Shown here piece by piece: positions 9,182 through 58,505 of a stretch of DNA of 64,000 nucleotides. Source of the DNA: a virus. The position numbers and the translations under genes are program-made. The notes below the pieces were generated by a model, which saw nothing but the letters and a program-made list of their open reading frames with translations, was not told the origin of the DNA and searched no databases. Each line of letters starts with the position of its first letter. The stretch's first letter is position 1. The stretch covers positions 1 to 64,000 of the IMG/VR virus record IMGVR_UViG_3300024243_000006; one strand, given 5' to 3'.

Positions 9182-9243
9182 ATACGCCTAAACTTGCAGC
9201 TACATTTTTTTTGATTAACAGTTTATACAATAAGGTAATTACA

Positions 9244-10638
9244 ATGGAACCAGTATATGACGACGGGTCCAGCATATGGTATGCTTACACCGTCGATGAA
9301 CTACACGGCATTACAGAGCCACGAAAGCATGTTGTTTTTCGTGGTTGGATTAAAACAATCAGACATTCCAAGGCCGGAATGTCATTCATTCACGTAACAG
9401 ATGGGAGCGCTTTGCGCCCGTATCAGATTTTCGTTAAGGAGTCTGACGTAGAGGGTTACGATGAGATTAAGAAGCTCACTTCTGGCTGCTCAATTGAAGT
9501 CTATGGCGAAGTCGTAGAATCAAAGGGTAAGGGTCAGGACTTTGAGCTTATCGCACAGAGCCTTAAGATTCATGGTTTGGTCGAAGACCCTGCCACGTAT
9601 CCTATTCAGGCCAAAGATACTTCAATGGAGTATCTCAGGTCTGTTGCTCACCTCAGACCACGCTCGCAGGTCTTCTCTTCTATTACGAGAGTAAGGACAG
9701 AGTTGGCTCATGCCACACAGAGCTTCTTCTACGGTAAGGGTTATCAGTGGATCCACACCCCGATCATTACAGGCAGTGATTGTGAAGGTGGTGGTGAAAT
9801 GTTTAGAGTCTCTACAGATTCTAAGGAAGAGTTCTTCGGTAAGCCTGCATTCCTCACTGTGTCTGGACAGTTGAACGTCGAACCATTTGCATGTTCAATG
9901 GGCAAGGTTTATACCTTCGGTCCTACGTTCAGAGCAGAGAACAGCCAGACCTCCAGGCACCTGTCTGAGTTCTGGATGATTGAGCCAGAGACTGCATTTT
10001 ACGATCTTGACGACAACGTCAAGCTTGCGACTGAGTTTCTACAATCAATCTTCAGAAGCTGCTTGGACTATAGATATGAGGATCTTGAGTACCTTGCTGG
10101 TCAGTTTAGAGAAGGTCAAGCTTTCCTATCTACCCTGCAAAAGGTAGTCTCCGAACCTCCGGAGAGGATGACATACACTGAGGCTATCAAGATCCTTGAA
10201 GCTACAGACCATCCTTTTGAGTTCCCTGTTTCTTGGGGAATCGATCTACAGTCGGAGCATGAGAAATTCCTTTGTGAATACGTCGGCGGTAAGATTCTTG
10301 TTGTCACAGATTATCCCAAGGATATCAAGGCTTTCTATATGAAGCTTAGTGAGGACGAGAAGACTGTCGGAGCAATGGATATTCTCCTGCCAGGAATTGG
10401 CGAGATTATCGGAGGCTCACAGCGAGAGGAAAAGTTCGATGTTCTTTTGAGAAGGATTCAGGAAATGGGTCTGGAACGAGAAGAGTACGAATGGTACCTC
10501 GACCTGAGAAAGTATGGCACCGTGCCTCACTCTGGATTCGGACTCGGCTTTGAACGAGCAGTACAGTATGTCACAGGTGTTCCCAACATTAGAGACACAA
10601 TCCCTTACCCAAGGGCTGTAGGAAAGATGGAGTACTGA
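9244..10638 (+). CDS. asnS: asparaginyl-tRNA synthetase
   Basis: A 464-residue class IIb synthetase. The N-terminal OB fold (VFRGWIKTIRHSKAGMSFIHV) would bind the anticodon. Motif 2 is TFRAENSQTSRHLSEFWM followed by IEPE, the AsnRS pattern; motif 3 is GFGLGFERAVQYVTG ending in the usual IRDTIPYPR. Reaction: ATP-dependent charging of tRNA-Asn. Start ATG 9244 behind AAGG. Two tRNAs with the Asn anticodon GTT are encoded at 48633 and 49170, the first with an unusual long-arm body, so the enzyme may serve the phage tRNAs. Confidence 0.93.
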   Translation: MEPVYDDGSSIWYAYTVDELHGITEPRKHVVFRGWIKTIRHSKAGMSFIHVTDGSALRPYQIFVKESDVEGYDEIKKLTSGCSIEVYGEVVESKGKGQDFELIAQSLKIHGLVEDPATYPIQAKDTSMEYLRSVAHLRPRSQVFSSITRVRTELAHATQSFFYGKGYQWIHTPIITGSDCEGGGEMFRVSTDSKEEFFGKPAFLTVSGQLNVEPFACSMGKVYTFGPTFRAENSQTSRHLSEFWMIEPETAFYDLDDNVKLATEFLQSIFRSCLDYRYEDLEYLAGQFREGQAFLSTLQKVVSEPPERMTYTEAIKILEATDHPFEFPVSWGIDLQSEHEKFLCEYVGGKILVVTDYPKDIKAFYMKLSEDEKTVGAMDILLPGIGEIIGGSQREEKFDVLLRRIQEMGLEREEYEWYLDLRKYGTVPHSGFGLGFERAVQYVTGVPNIRDTIPYPRAVGKMEY

Positions 10639-23966: not shown

Positions 23967-24509
23967 ATGCCCGTATACCCAGGTGATAATAAGATCGTTA
24001 GAAAAAGCGACATGCTCCGTGATGGGAAAATCGTTCCATCAATTGTAGAAAAATGGGTTTCGCAGAACCTTGAGCACAGAGGTCTTCCTTGGGATTATGA
24101 GTTCCCTCTTCAAGAGTACCTCGAAGAGGTCGTATCAGAAGAGACTATCGCCTTATATGATAAGTACAAGGATGGTGGCCTAATCTCAGATGGTAACATG
24201 ACAATGTTGCATAGAGATATGCTAAGTCTAACAAATATACAGCGAGGTGTTGTGTGGATCATACTTGGCAATAAAAGAGAGTTCCGAAGAAAGATCCCTG
24301 TCATGAAACGGAACTCACCTTTTGTTAGGATGATAACCGATACGTATGTGGAAAAGAGTAATACGCCAGGAGGGAGGTCGAAAGCTTCACTGGAAGCTTC
24401 ATTTGCTTTAGACCCCATGGGAGTCATTCTTCCAGAACATTTTGATCTGGGCAAAACGCCGAAAGAGATTCTTAGAGATATTGTAGAAGTGGATAAGGAG
24501 AGACAATGA
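23967..24509 (+). CDS. hypothetical protein, 180 aa
   Basis: ATG 23967. Mixed alpha-beta protein with ILGNKREFRRKIPVMKRNSP in the middle, a basic stretch that may contact nucleic acid. Its end overlaps the deformylase start. No family recognised. Confidence 0.65.
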   Translation: MPVYPGDNKIVRKSDMLRDGKIVPSIVEKWVSQNLEHRGLPWDYEFPLQEYLEEVVSEETIALYDKYKDGGLISDGNMTMLHRDMLSLTNIQRGVVWIILGNKREFRRKIPVMKRNSPFVRMITDTYVEKSNTPGGRSKASLEASFALDPMGVILPEHFDLGKTPKEILRDIVEVDKERQ

Positions 24510-25057
24510 GTTTGACACTAAAGGTAATTCCTTCTCAGGAACTAAATGATGAGTCGCGTTCGGTTGAGGCTGAAGAGTTTGGAGAAGACCTCCTAAGCCA
24601 TATGGAGGATATGGCTCAGACAATGTACGCACATACTGGCGTTGGCTTGGCCGGCGTACAGGTAGGAGACATGAGGCGTATCCTTGTGGCTGACCTTGGA
24701 TATGTGCGTACCCGTGTATATGGCGGTGACCTTCTTTACATGGTTAATCCAGAAATTGTTGAGCAGTCGGAAGAGGAAAACAAGGCTTCCGAAGGTTGTC
24801 TTTCTTTCCCCGGTCTTGAAGAGTTTGTGAAGAGGCCAGATTGGGTCGTCGTCAAGTTCATGACACCTCTTGGTGAGGAAAGAACTGAGAGGTTTCAGCA
24901 GTACGAGGCAAGGATTGTTCTGCACGAAATGGATCATTTTGATGGTGTTACGCTTCACGGAAGGCTCTCCAATTTTAAACGTAGACGGTACCAGAAGACT
25001 CTGGTTAGCAAGCTAAAAGAGCTTGGAAGAATGCTATCGGATAAGGCAAGGCTCTAA
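24506..25057 (+). CDS. def: peptide deformylase
   Basis: 183 residues with all three deformylase motifs: GVGLAGVQVG near 46 (GxGLAAxQ), EGCLSFPG near 96 and HEMDHFDG near 143 (metal His pair and catalytic Glu). It removes the formyl group from new N-terminal methionines, using Fe2+. Phage copies are known and may process phage proteins at high flux. ATG 24506 overlaps the previous stop. Confidence 0.93.
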   Translation: MSLTLKVIPSQELNDESRSVEAEEFGEDLLSHMEDMAQTMYAHTGVGLAGVQVGDMRRILVADLGYVRTRVYGGDLLYMVNPEIVEQSEEENKASEGCLSFPGLEEFVKRPDWVVVKFMTPLGEERTERFQQYEARIVLHEMDHFDGVTLHGRLSNFKRRRYQKTLVSKLKELGRMLSDKARL

Positions 25058-25404: not shown

Positions 25405-25788
25405 ATGGCAGATACATTTGTCGAGTATTTGATTGAGAATTTTGCAGAAAGAGTAGGAAGAGTTAGAGGCAATTCTCTTAACGAGAAGGTGGCCTTTTTG
25501 AGAGGTAGATATCTGAAGACCGCTCTGGATGGCCGAAAGGAATCCGAAGCAGGAAATGATACCTCTATCTATCGTTCTGCTTATGCTTCTGCGCACGAAG
25601 ATATAGGAAACATGCTTGTTGACTTCGATGAGTCTATCGAGTATCTTGAGACTGAGATCATCAGCTACATCGTAACGCTTATGGAAACTACCGCCGTTAA
25701 TAAGACTCCATCCTCCGCAGGGTATTTGGATGCTTATGGCTATATGGTTGCCGAGCTTAGAAGGGCTGTGGAGGAATCAAATGTTTGA
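25405..25788 (+). CDS. hypothetical protein, 127 aa
   Basis: ATG 25405 directly after the cupin stop. Helical and acidic; its end (YGYMVAELRRAVEESNV) overlaps the LysRS start. No family recognised. Confidence 0.6.
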   Translation: MADTFVEYLIENFAERVGRVRGNSLNEKVAFLRGRYLKTALDGRKESEAGNDTSIYRSAYASAHEDIGNMLVDFDESIEYLETEIISYIVTLMETTAVNKTPSSAGYLDAYGYMVAELRRAVEESNV

Positions 25789-27214
25789 GTTTGATAAGAG
25801 ACAGCTAAAGAAGCTTTCTGAAATGAGAGCAGAAGGTGTCGATCCTTATCCCGTGGGGGAAAGCGGTGTGATGCCTCTGTCCGTAATTGATGGGCTAAGA
25901 GAGTTCTCGATGGGAGTTCTTGAGGGAACTGATCCTGTAAGAGTATTCGGAAGAGTTCGTTTTAAGAATGAAATGGGAAAGCTTGGGTTCGGAAGGATCG
26001 AAGATGATGGCGGCCGAGTACAGATATGTGTTCGAAAGAACGAAGTATCTCCGGAAGCTTTCAAGGCTTGGAAGAGACTGGATCTGGGTGACTGGGTTTA
26101 TGTCTCTGGTACATATGGTCGTACACGTTCGGGCGAGCTTACGATCTTCGTAACGGATATTAGTCTTGCATCGAAGTGTGTCTCCCCTATGCCTGATAAG
26201 CTGTCCGGCTTCACGGATGTAGAGCAGGAGTACCGTAAGAGGTATCTTCATCTTGCTGTATCGTCTGAGGCAAGGGACCTGTTTAAGCGCAGGTCCAACA
26301 CAGTCTCTCTCATGAGAAGGATGCTTGAGGGTCGAGGATTCATGGAGGTAGAGACTCCTATGCTCCACTCCATTCCTGGCGGAGCTTTGGCTAAGCCATT
26401 CGTGACGCATCACAATGCACTTAATCAGGAAATGTTTCTTAGGATTGCTCCAGAGCTTCATCTGAAGAGACTGTTGGTTGGCGGATTCCCCAGGGTATTC
26501 GAGATTAACAGATGCTTTAGGAATGAGGGAATTGGAACTAAGTACAATCCTGAATTTACTACGGTTGAGCTTTACCAAGCTCATGCAACATATGATGACC
26601 TTATCGAATTGATCTCGATTATTGTTTCAGAGCTTGGACAGTTTGCTTCGTCAGACAATCCTGTGGACTTTGATAACATTACGCGAATCAGATTCGATGA
26701 TGCCATTCGGAATCTTGGGATTGAAGATCCTTGGAACGTCGATCAGCTAAGGGCATTCTGGGTTGCTAACCGTGGAGAGAGCGAAAGCTTGCCGGATACT
26801 GTTGGTGATTGGTATGATATCATCTTCGATGCATTCATTCAGGATACGCTAATTGATCCTACCTTTATCACTAACCATCCTTCCGAGACTTCACCTCTCG
26901 CAAGAAAGACTGATGGAGACTCAAGGACTGTTGATAGGTTCGAGCTTTACATTCGAGGCATGGAAGTGTCTGATGGATGGACAGAGCTCAATGATCCTGT
27001 TGAACAGGCTGAGAATTTCGTTCAGCAGCTTGCACGAAGAGAGGGCGGGGATGAAGAGGCTATGCTTTTTGATGAGGATTTTGTAAGAGCATTGAGTTAT
27101 GGTATGCCACCAGCAGCAGGAGTCGGACTTGGTATTGACAGGCTGATGATGGTACTTTGTAACAAGAAGAGCATTCGTGACGTAATCCTATTCCCTACTC
27201 TACGTAGGGAATAG
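25781..27214 (+). CDS. lysS: lysyl-tRNA synthetase, class II
   Basis: ATG 25781 behind GAGGAA. A 477-residue class IIb enzyme: OB-fold anticodon domain (VRVFGRVRFKNEMGKLGF), motif 1 RGFMEVETPMLHSIPGGALA, motif 2 INRCFRNEGIGTKYNPEFTT with VELYQA, motif 3 AGVGLGIDRLMM followed by IRDVILFPTLR. Charges tRNA-Lys with ATP. Two phage tRNA-Lys genes are present: a normal TTT one (52481) and a long-arm CTT one (49962). A perfect hairpin overlaps the gene's end. Confidence 0.94.
   Translation: MFEFDKRQLKKLSEMRAEGVDPYPVGESGVMPLSVIDGLREFSMGVLEGTDPVRVFGRVRFKNEMGKLGFGRIEDDGGRVQICVRKNEVSPEAFKAWKRLDLGDWVYVSGTYGRTRSGELTIFVTDISLASKCVSPMPDKLSGFTDVEQEYRKRYLHLAVSSEARDLFKRRSNTVSLMRRMLEGRGFMEVETPMLHSIPGGALAKPFVTHHNALNQEMFLRIAPELHLKRLLVGGFPRVFEINRCFRNEGIGTKYNPEFTTVELYQAHATYDDLIELISIIVSELGQFASSDNPVDFDNITRIRFDDAIRNLGIEDPWNVDQLRAFWVANRGESESLPDTVGDWYDIIFDAFIQDTLIDPTFITNHPSETSPLARKTDGDSRTVDRFELYIRGMEVSDGWTELNDPVEQAENFVQQLARREGGDEEAMLFDEDFVRALSYGMPPAAGVGLGIDRLMMVLCNKKSIRDVILFPTLRRE
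27189..27211 (+). terminator. hairpin overlapping lysS end
   Basis: ATTCCCTAC and GTAGGGAAT form nine perfect pairs around a five-base loop, covering the last codons of lysS up to its TAG stop. No long T-tract follows, so it may be a terminator without T-run or an mRNA-end stabiliser. Confidence 0.45.
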
Positions 27215-38572: not shown

Positions 38573-38812
38573 ATGAAGATCGATATGGAGATTCTTAAGA
38601 GTCGAGTCAAAGGGACAGTAAACTTTTCTTTTTTCAGAGCAGGACAGCTCTGGTATGTATGTGAGGACGGGTGGGAATTTCCTATTCCTGTCGAAGATAC
38701 GGGCAATGCACAGGGAAGCTCTCCCACTTTCTCTGCTCAGATGAAGGGCATTTATATGATGCGCTGGGTAAAGAAGGCTATGGAAGCAGAACTACAAAGG
38801 GATAGTGAGTGA
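38573..38812 (+). CDS. hypothetical phage protein, 79 aa
   Basis: ATG 38573 with AGGTGATACA upstream. The pattern FSFFRAGQLWYVCEDGWEFP and a tail ending MMRWVKKAME is of a type seen in many phages (sequence F-x-F-x-R-x-G-x-LWY). Function unknown. Overlaps the next gene. Confidence 0.62.
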   Translation: MKIDMEILKSRVKGTVNFSFFRAGQLWYVCEDGWEFPIPVEDTGNAQGSSPTFSAQMKGIYMMRWVKKAMEAELQRDSE

Positions 38813-41673: not shown

Positions 41674-41725
41674 AGTACTGTCACTCCTACTAAGATTAAG
41701 TATAATAGTAGGACTGGAGGTTCTA

Positions 41726-42413
41726 ATGAATTCGATCATATTGGAAATTAAAGCTGCCGAAGGCGGCACAGATGCAAAGCTCCTTGTTGATGAACAGTTG
41801 GCCATTTATAGGAGATACTGTTCTCGGAGGTCTCTTTGAGTTAGCTCTCTTAGATTCCAGAAGCGGTTTTATCAGATGCAGAGTCAGCGGCAAAAACGTC
41901 AAAAAACATTTTAGGCATGAGCCTGGAGGCCACAGATGGCAAAGGGTTCCTCCGACAGAGAGACGAGGAAGGGTTCATACTTCTACGATCACTGTCGCTG
42001 TCCTACCGGAAGTAACTGAATCTGAAGTTAAGATTAGCGAAAAAGATTTAGAATGGAAAGCCTTTAGGGGTTCTGGTCCCGGCGGTCAGCATAGAAACAA
42101 AACTGATTCTGCTGTGTCGCTTCACCATAAGCCTACTGGAATCAAGATCCGTTCTGAATCTCAAAAGAGTCAGAAGCAGAATAAGGACACCGCTCTTGCA
42201 ATATTGAGAGCGAGGTTGCATTCTGAGCAGAGAGAGTCTCAGTCTTTGCGACGCAGTAATATGAGGAAGAGCCAAGTGGGCTCAGGTATGCGCGCCGACA
42301 AAATCAGGACGATCAGGTTGCAGGACGGACAAGTTACGGATCACAACACTGGAAAAAGAATCTCTGCGAAAAAATATTTGCGCGGAGACTTGGAAGGTCT
42401 ATTTGAAAAGTAA
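41726..42413 (+). CDS. RF1-type peptide chain release factor with prfB-like +1 frameshift site
   Basis: ATG 41726 behind GGAGG. The 5' frame reads ILEIKAAEGGTDAKLLVDEQ and RRYCSRRSL, then TGA at 41837. Just before it stands CGGAGG-TCT-CTT-TGA, the same order (internal Shine-Dalgarno, three bases, CTT, TGA) as the prfB frameshift site. Skipping one base continues homology: GGHRWQRVPPTERRGRVHTS, TVAVLPEV, then GPGGQHRNKTDSAV. GGQ is the catalytic loop; P-x-T (PPT) is the RF1-type codon motif for UAA/UAG. About 228 residues, lacking domain 1. The C terminus is basic. Confidence 0.85.
41826..41840 (+). promoter_or_regulatory. programmed +1 frameshift site (prfB-like)
   Basis: CGGAGGTCTCTTTGA: internal Shine-Dalgarno GGAGG, three-base spacer, slippery CTT and the in-frame TGA stop. 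The E. coli prfB site has AGGGGG, TAT, CTT, TGA in the same spacing. Confidence 0.8.
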
Positions 42414-55957: not shown

Positions 55958-56035
55958 GGGGAATTAGCTCAATTGGCCAGAGCGGCAGATTCTAGACCTG
56001 CGACAGTGTGGGTTCGAGCCCCACATTCCCTACCA
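55958..56035 (+). tRNA. tRNA with CTA anticodon (amber suppressor)
   Basis: Acceptor GGGGAAT pairs with ATTCCCT; D arm TAGCTCAATTGGCCAGAGC; anticodon arm GCAGA-TTCTAGA-CCTGC gives CTA, complementary to UAG; T loop TTCGAGC; CCA at 56033-56035. The outermost anticodon pair next to the loop is A-C. Class I body. Confidence 0.85.
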
Positions 56036-56183: not shown

Positions 56184-56260
56184 GCTCTAGTGGTCTAATG
56201 GTTAGGATACCGGCCTTTCAAGCCGTGTGATTGCCAGTTCGAATCTGGTCTAGAGTACCA
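56184..56260 (+). tRNA. tRNA-Glu(TTC)
   Basis: Acceptor GCTCTAG pairs with CTAGAGT; anticodon arm CCGGC-CTTTCAA-GCCGT gives TTC; T loop TTCGAAT; CCA at 56258-56260. Confidence 0.93.
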
Positions 56261-56278: not shown

Positions 56279-56393
56279 ACGCCGTTTCTTCAATGGGATA
56301 GTTGCTGACAGGTAGGCAGCTACTTATTTGGAAGCGTTCTTAAGGGGCCTGCCTCCTATAGATCGGGGGGTTCGATTCCCCTACGGAGTACCA
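56279..56393 (+). tRNA. tRNA-like element with internal hairpin insertion
   Basis: T arm GGGGG-TTCGATT-CCCCT and ACGGAGT-A-CCA are normal; the 5' strand ACGCCGT pairs with one mismatch. The 115-base length is too large. Inside, AGGCAG pairs with CTGCCT around nested stems (CTTA/TAAG, GAA/TTC), as if a hairpin were inserted. No anticodon arm of normal form is seen. It could be an intron-bearing or inactive tRNA. Confidence 0.45.
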
Positions 56394-57505: not shown

Positions 57506-58023
57506 TGAAATACAAAGTAAAGAAAGGTGCGATGAACTCGGGCGGCATTAGTAAACTCATAGAGTTTGCAGAAACTCTGAACTATACGCCGTGTTCAACT
57601 TGGCTCGGATATTACAAAGAAAAGGTATTCTACCTTGGCGATATGAGCAAAGAAGATGTTCCGAAAATTCTGCACAGTCTTGCTCCTGCGATCCTCGGAA
57701 AGCTATCGGCTCTTGGAGAGCTAAGCGAAGACAATCTTTTTAATCAAATCGTGATTAAGAAGTATGCCGAAGGAGACGAAGGCAAGCCGCATTTTGATCC
57801 AAGAGATATTAAGGGGAAGGTCGTTGCAATTCACTTTGGTGACTTTGAGCTTAGTACGGTAAGGTTTGATGGCGAAGAAGTAATGGTTGACTCTGGGGAT
57901 GTCATCATCCGACAGGCAACATCGGGTTACACGATGGGGCCAAAGTACAACGTAAGTGCAGTTGAGGGCGGCACAAAATATGTCCTCGAATTCCAAACAA
58001 TCACTAAGGAGAAACCCTCTTGA
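57505..58023 (+). CDS. possible 2OG-Fe(II) oxygenase-like (AlkB-type) protein
   Basis: GTG 57505. 172 residues. The middle, IVIKKYAEGDEGKPHFDPRD, resembles the Y-x-x-G-x-x-x-x-x-H-x-D iron site of AlkB-type dioxygenases, followed by VVAIHFGDFELSTVRF and GDVIIRQATSG. The second iron His is not obvious, so activity is doubtful. Family members repair alkylated nucleic acid or hydroxylate proteins. Confidence 0.5.
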   Translation: MKYKVKKGAMNSGGISKLIEFAETLNYTPCSTWLGYYKEKVFYLGDMSKEDVPKILHSLAPAILGKLSALGELSEDNLFNQIVIKKYAEGDEGKPHFDPRDIKGKVVAIHFGDFELSTVRFDGEEVMVDSGDVIIRQATSGYTMGPKYNVSAVEGGTKYVLEFQTITKEKPS

Positions 58024-58505
58024 AAACAAGAGTAAATTCTGATATCATAGCAAGAAGAGTTCTTCTCATTGGAGGAGACGGTTCCAAGGTTGGCATTTTT
58101 CAGACAAGAGATGCCATAAGTAAAGCACAGGAGGCAGGTCTTGACCTGTTGCAGGTCAGCGCAGATCAGGAAGTTCCCGTGTGTAAGATTGTCGATTATG
58201 GCAAGATGCTTTATCTTCTAAAGAAGGGCAAGAAGGCTAAGGGATCAAGGGTTGTTGTGAAGGAAGTGAAGTTCGGACCTAACACTGGTGATGCTGATAT
58301 TCAGGTCAGAGTTAAGGCTGCGAACAAATTCCTCTCCAAGGGTAACCACGTCAAGTTTACCGTCAGGGTGAAGGGTCGTGCAAACGCTCACAGAGACCTT
58401 GTCATCGATAAGCTTGCAGAAGTTCTTGAGAAGGTAGAGGGGAAAGTAGAGAAGGCTCCATCCTTCTCAGGCAACATATGCTCGGCGCTTGTCGTGCCGG
58501 AGTAA
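58020..58505 (+). CDS. infC: translation initiation factor IF-3
   Basis: 161 residues, full IF-3: N-terminal domain IIARRVLLIGGDGSKVGIFQ and AQEAGLDLLQVSADQEVPVC with KIVDYGKMLY, a Lys-rich linker (KKGKKAKGSRVVVKEVKFGP), and the C-terminal domain with KAANKFLSKGNHVKFTVRVK and GRANAHRDL. It binds the 30S subunit and checks start codons and subunit joining. TTG 58020 overlaps the previous stop. The weak start echoes the AUU start of bacterial infC. Confidence 0.92.
   Translation: MKTRVNSDIIARRVLLIGGDGSKVGIFQTRDAISKAQEAGLDLLQVSADQEVPVCKIVDYGKMLYLLKKGKKAKGSRVVVKEVKFGPNTGDADIQVRVKAANKFLSKGNHVKFTVRVKGRANAHRDLVIDKLAEVLEKVEGKVEKAPSFSGNICSALVVPE

Follow-up and report, generated by a model that had tools for sequence, protein, structure and literature searches.

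A prfB-like frameshift cassette in an RF1-type release-factor gene and a UAG-reading tRNA in a 395-kb phage that still stops at UAG

Programmed recoding of a release-factor gene is the textbook means of RF2 autoregulation. For RF1, a 2016 review described the counterpart of this gate as unknown (PMC5009743), and a 2025 survey covering more than 12,000 bacterial genomes detected neither a programmed frameshift in prfA nor TAG in any of 8,164 prfB motifs (PMC12421855). In the open-licence literature we found no report of recoding in phage release factors, although absence there is not proof; such a gate is known for RF2 genes and has not been reported for the RF1 type. Among viruses, the class-I release factor of Mimivirus and Megavirus involves one frameshift and one readthrough (PMC3521657). 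Loss of domain 1 from a class-I release factor is known from PrfH, or RF-H (PMC1586002), and a paper on huge phages lists RF1, RF2, IF3, peptide deformylase and tmRNA (PMC7162821).

A second set of precedents concerns phage tRNAs that read UAG. Phages using genetic code 15 frequently carry a Sup-CTA tRNA (PMC11210395; PMC13037316). Orphan amber tRNAs are also known, and unexplained, in phages with the standard code: the authors describing Xanthomonas phage XacN1 (PMC5852040) and Stenotrophomonas phage Summit (PMC9022506) found no target for theirs, and Aeromonas phage Akh-2 carries a tRNA-Sup-CTA. By itself, the CUA tRNA described here joins this group: its phage retains UAG as a stop and, as in XacN1 and Summit, no target could be identified. 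Unlike these cases, however, the present phage also encodes an RF1-type factor, and the anticodon stem of its tRNA has an A31.C39 mismatch together with G37.

The stretch analysed here (the window) is the opening 64 kb of a virus record of 149,317 bp. This record overlaps an independently assembled contig of 395,127 bp, and the genome of this bacterial virus is approximately 395 kb. The window holds 36 tRNA genes by ARAGORN, and the phage totals more than 40 tRNA genes plus a tmRNA. The phage thereby brings its own translation kit, consisting of a near-complete tRNA set, tmRNA, IF3, peptide deformylase, LysRS, AsnRS and an RF1-type factor (Table 1). We propose, with a probability of about 0.7, a joint explanation in which a real amber tRNA makes UAG leaky and a gated RF1-type competitor is produced when RF2 activity falls.

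Table 1. Translation-related features of the 64-kb window (positions are those of the window).
Feature	Position	Strand	Basis or remark
Asparaginyl-tRNA synthetase (AsnRS)	9211..10638	+	NCBIfam 597.7 bits
Peptide deformylase	24506..25057	+	NCBIfam 110.8 bits, above cut-off
Lysyl-tRNA synthetase (LysRS, lysS)	25730..27214	+	NCBIfam 538 bits; TAG stop at 27212
Ribosome-binding site GGAGG of RF1-type gene	41716..41720	+	sequence
RF1-type gene, upstream piece, ATG 41726 to TGA 41837-41839	41726..41839	+	joining raises prfA match
Frameshift cassette GGAGG TCT CTT TGA (internal Shine-Dalgarno, 3-nt spacer, CUU slippery codon, UGA)	41826..41839	+	
RF1-type gene, downstream piece in +1 frame, PPT and GGQ, TAA end, no domain 1	41838..42413	+	
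tRNA with anticodon CUA (55992-55994), encoded CCA, UAG-reading	55958..56035	+	ARAGORN and Rfam
tRNA-Glu (ttc), neighbour of the amber tRNA	56184..56260	+	ARAGORN
Initiation factor IF-3	58020..58505	+	NCBIfam 146.8 bits, above cut-off

A preliminary description of the window had noted an RF1-type factor that would compete for UAG. The factor exists and would indeed compete there; the ORF at 41772-42413, however, is only the downstream part of the gene and is without the beginning of domain 2, which lies upstream in a different frame. This RF2-style +1 frameshift split had been missed. The upstream piece reads ...AIYRRYCSRRSL before its TGA, and the junction, CGGAGGTCTCTTTGAG, consists of a Shine-Dalgarno sequence, 3 nt, CUU and UGA, as in prfB. 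A +1 step at CUU unites both pieces into a 228-residue protein with PPT where RF1 has PxT, and with GGQ. This joined protein matches prfA with 239.7 bits from model position 113, compared to 208.6 bits for the downstream piece alone; domain 1 is absent, and the curated prfA cut-off of 423.25 bits is not reached. An RF2 identity was rejected based on PPT rather than SPF and a lower prfB score (158.9 bits), as was a PrfH identity, given a score of 83.8 bits and no RtcB among the neighbouring ORFs scanned. The protein thus resembles PrfH in lacking domain 1 and differs from it in its far lower score to PrfH than to prfA and in its neighbours.

Judged on sequence, the RF1-type gene carries the RF2 (prfB) frameshift cassette exactly: internal Shine-Dalgarno sequence, 3-nt spacer, CUU with an in-frame UGA and a +1 continuation are all present, and by analogy with prfB the ribosome would slip at CUU. 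Unlike in prfB, the product is an RF1-type factor and the site lies in domain 2 rather than near the N-terminus of a full-length factor; moreover, across its relatives the gate stop may also be UAG or UAA, and many members use an in-frame UGA instead. One frame change and one stop within a gene could also mark an assembly error or a pseudogene. Two independent assemblies are identical here, though, and 39 distinct sequences, some from chromosomes of Nannocystis isolates, have CTT followed by a stop at this position, which leaves this explanation a negligible probability.

Searching IMG/VR with three homologues yielded 67 viral loci (L175-L241), each of which was read in all frames, and 64 of them proved to be gated. 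A +1 gate occurs in 37, with CTT followed by TGA (28), TAG (7) or TAA (2), one of them (L199) having an additional frame break. Another 27 have a single in-frame TGA, and only three are uninterrupted, including that of a 332-kb relative of the phage (G002). The same kind of gene was found on chromosomes of Nannocystis isolates, among them the culture-collection strain N. exedens DSM 71 (L277), whose copy is gated, and in several MAGs; the loci examined also take in L268-L288. With the bacterial loci included, all 39 distinct shift sites consist of CTT plus a stop; GGAGG lies exactly 3 nt upstream in 19 of them and GGAG at 3-4 nt in eight, and 35 carry C or G directly behind the stop. An Agrobacterium plasmid match in two pieces turned out to be ordinary RF1 sequence with no cassette. 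A maximum-likelihood tree from a quick search places two losses of the gate and three origins of the in-frame form, along with repeated switches of the shift stop; the interruption itself has thus persisted through changes of form.

In the in-frame group, 23 TGAs fall on one residue, the Trp position of RF1 (KGW in Thermotoga RF1), the remaining Trp codons being TGG, and T never follows the TGA (0 of 24 distinct sites). A general recoding of TGA was dismissed, since flanking genes and sampled stretches stop at TGA. Neither pattern searches nor ARAGORN revealed a UGA-reading phage tRNA in 14 records; five of the six pattern hits were rescanned, and the sixth (L266) was judged by its region in L246, which is a tRNA-Leu (caa). 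We infer that the in-frame UGA is passed by near-cognate insertion of Trp.

Gates also occur in uncultured huge phages. Five of six LR-numbered records of 485-735 kb are gated, one by CTT|TGA and four by one or two in-frame TGAs, and one is uninterrupted; yet the accessible sections of the huge-phage paper (PMC7162821) make no mention of gates in release-factor genes. Two in-frame TGAs interrupt the gene in L365 (LR756501, a 735-kb phage) and L361 (LR745206, 635 kb). Such doubly interrupted genes recall the Mimivirus factor, likewise a viral release-factor gene broken by recoding signals; the latter, however, is of eukaryotic/archaeal type in viruses of amoebae, as opposed to a bacterial RF1 type in phages. 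UAG gates are seen, for example, in L185, L181, L178, L191, L218 and L271, and two UAG- or UAA-gated members (L185, L200) have SPT rather than PPT. In many gated members, such as L180, L186, L192 and L201, Gln takes the place of the conserved His that follows the PxT motif (IHTS to VQTS), possibly altering stop specificity.

The other half of the proposed pair is the amber tRNA, which the preliminary description had called well formed. ARAGORN reads the anticodon cta at 55958-56035, and Rfam RF00005 matches with 54.4 bits (gathering score 29; E=6.2e-9) over the full model (1-71). The D and T arms are ordinary, the T arm containing GUUCGA; U8, A14, G18G19 and U33 are all present, and CCA is encoded. 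The independently assembled 395,127-bp contig has the identical tRNA. It is, as far as sequence can tell, a real tRNA that reads UAG by its CUA anticodon. Three features deviate from the ideal: the anticodon loop is closed by the A31.C39 mismatch, position 37 is occupied by G where A would be expected, and the acceptor stem starts with G1.U72. The concern raised earlier that a covariance model might read the loop differently was fair, as folding without constraints yields an anticodon stem of 4 bp and a 9-nt loop, but CUA is the sole reading with U33. The mismatch and G37 could make suppression weak.

Regarding the attached amino acid, 'tRNA-Pyl' is merely the default name of the tool for cta. 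The structure is not that of a pyrrolysine tRNA, the reduced atypical form being absent and the D and T arms being ordinary with GUUCGA. Among the window proteins scanned, the only PylS matches are sub-threshold, inside LysRS and a HisS/HisZ-like protein. The discriminator base is A73 here and G73 in G002. By the identity elements of E. coli, A73 would fit charging by LysRS, and G1.U72 would fit GlnRS. The phage LysRS is a candidate charger. Descent from other tRNAs of the phage was also discarded, the best match among these (tRNA-Ala and tRNA-Gln) being 65%, below the match to other CTA tRNAs: among the isolates looked at, the tRNA of Akh-2 is the closest with 74% identity, and that of XacN1 is 75% identical to the tRNA of G002.

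The earlier statements that many genes end in TAG and that UAG is still a stop both hold. TAG terminates lysS and the ORFs at 38809, 39156/39162, 51008 and 61388. Of the 411 ORFs that reach 100 aa in the approximately 395-kb sequence, 66 have TAG as their stop, as do 39 (14.0%) of the 279 that reach 150 aa. A count of TAG within conserved late genes elsewhere in the genome had also been suggested. The phage and G002, whose terminases are 68% identical, were translated so that TAG appeared as an undefined residue, and a comparison of all frames gave 218 non-overlapping matches. In the 64,035 aligned protein columns no TAG is internal to a conserved protein; the 14 TAGs within the alignments all lie at ends, either before a start codon or at the stop. 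UAG is therefore not reassigned. The alternative that part of the phage uses code 15, in which UAG encodes an amino acid, as in Lak and crAss-like phages, with the tRNA serving that code, would fit the frequent Sup-CTA tRNAs of code-15 phages, but real genes end in TAG (lysS does so at its natural C-terminus), conserved proteins lack internal TAGs and the phage itself encodes an RF1-type factor; we consider it almost certainly wrong.

If UAG is a leaky stop, particular genes might be extended, and the preliminary description had suggested timed readthrough. This idea found no footing: across the aligned columns, G002 does not conserve a protein extension past any TAG, and TAG ends are not enriched for long in-frame continuations. 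Nine TAG-ended ORFs do continue in frame for at least 60 codons, but their rate, 9/66, resembles that of TAA and TGA ends (37/345; p=0.52), as it does in the relative (4/49 and 21/265; p=1), and backup stops after TAG show no excess over other stop ends. The best candidate for readthrough is a 464-aa TAG-ended gene in frame with the next, 2027-aa gene (115466-122980 of the 149-kb record; L011, L012), with no stop between the two except the TAG. This arrangement was discarded because it is not conserved in the relative, where the homologous gene has two terminal TAGs and another stop a few codons on. Target searches for XacN1 and Summit failed likewise. That the tRNA serves to read through the stops of one or a few particular phage genes in a programmed way is thus improbable.

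TAG is, moreover, rarer as a stop than its triplet frequency predicts, both in the phage (14.0% vs 21.4%; binomial p=0.001) and in the relative (17.1% vs 26.0%; p=0.0008). This would suit a tRNA without phage targets that makes termination in host genes less efficient or compensates for amber mutations, serving as an anti-host or insurance device. The under-use is weak evidence, however, because highly expressed bacterial genes generally avoid TAG (PMC8954436), and we regard a role of this kind, taken alone, as rather unlikely.

If the tRNA were simply drifting or decaying, free of any selected function, this would account for the anticodon-stem mismatch and G37, for its position in a long tRNA array beside a degenerate neighbour, and for the failure to find a readthrough target. 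Against decay, the distant relative keeps the tRNA with the same unusual features. The CTA tRNA of G002 (GCGCUGU...GAUUCUAGACC...CCA) is 68% identical to that of the window and shares A31.C39, G1.U72 and the anticodon arm AGA-UUCUAGA-CCU. Several other huge phages have such a tRNA too, often as a duplicate: among 12 contigs of at least 300 kb, drawn solely from viral contigs selected for the RF1-type gene, seven have one or two CTA tRNAs (G001, G002 and five more), four of these five hold two copies, and all five use the standard code in sampled stretches. LysS and GroEL searches for huge phages lacking the release-factor gene yielded too few contigs to serve as a comparison. The amber tRNA hence looks retained rather than accidental, and decay appears distinctly unlikely. 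None of the seven genomes with a CTA tRNA has a UAG gate in its release-factor gene, which is not significant because UAG gates make up approximately 10% of the family. A divergent CTA tRNA with the same AGATTCTAGACCT anticodon arm was also observed on a 44-kb phage contig (L160; IMGVR_UViG_3300045742_000032).

Under the joint explanation, the amber tRNA would cause some of the ribosomes in an infected cell to decode UAG as an amino acid. The resulting leaky stop is most likely an insurance or competitive part of the translation kit rather than a device for one programmed fusion. On the RF1-type mRNA, a ribosome would translate 37 codons, stall at CUU-UGA and slip +1, aided by the upstream Shine-Dalgarno sequence, to yield the RF1-type factor. 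The UGA gate most likely opens as RF2 activity drops, because its stop is not expected to be read by RF1-type factors. The phage factor would then supply termination at UAA and UAG, counteracting the phage's own amber tRNA, so that the two would have opposite effects on UAG.

A UGA gate on an RF1-type product does not form a simple RF2-style autoregulatory loop; either control is crossed, or the specificity of the factor is broadened. We favor cross-control, in which a shortage of RF2 would turn on synthesis of phage RF1; the main alternative is autoregulation by a factor of wider specificity. Members gated by UAG would regulate themselves under both readings. Extending cross-control further, we put forward as a tentative idea, at less than even odds, that a family of domain-1-less RF1-type genes in huge phages and some bacteria is gated at UGA, UAG or UAA, and that its UGA gates represent cross-control balancing the amber tRNA.

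On this tentative idea, phage RF1 and the amber tRNA would jointly govern what stop codons mean in the infected cell. A competitor at UAG also offers a concrete context for amber tRNAs in phages with the standard code, which have so far lacked an explanation. The family-wide gate, with its UAG, UAA, UGA and in-frame forms, makes it possible to ask directly why gating had seemed peculiar to RF2, to which signal the gate responds and by what means phages readjust termination. Gene callers blind to recoding will split or truncate gated RF1-type genes.

Additional features accompany this pair. A degenerate tRNA-like remnant without an ARAGORN call adjoins the amber tRNA at window positions 56284-56393, ending in GGTTCGATTCCCCTACGGAGTACCA. 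The phage tmRNA lies at 78711-79113 of the 149-kb record (in L009) and encodes the tag DDYSFVYANAGRGFGAPVVAYA, and two distinct GroEL-like chaperonin genes occur in this one phage, at 88077-89678 and 132877-134547 of the same record (in L010 and L012). Finally, the phage encodes a second, short GGQ-domain protein (G001:149075-149344; L169), a 119-aa frame with 53 bits to prfA that is perhaps ArfB-like.
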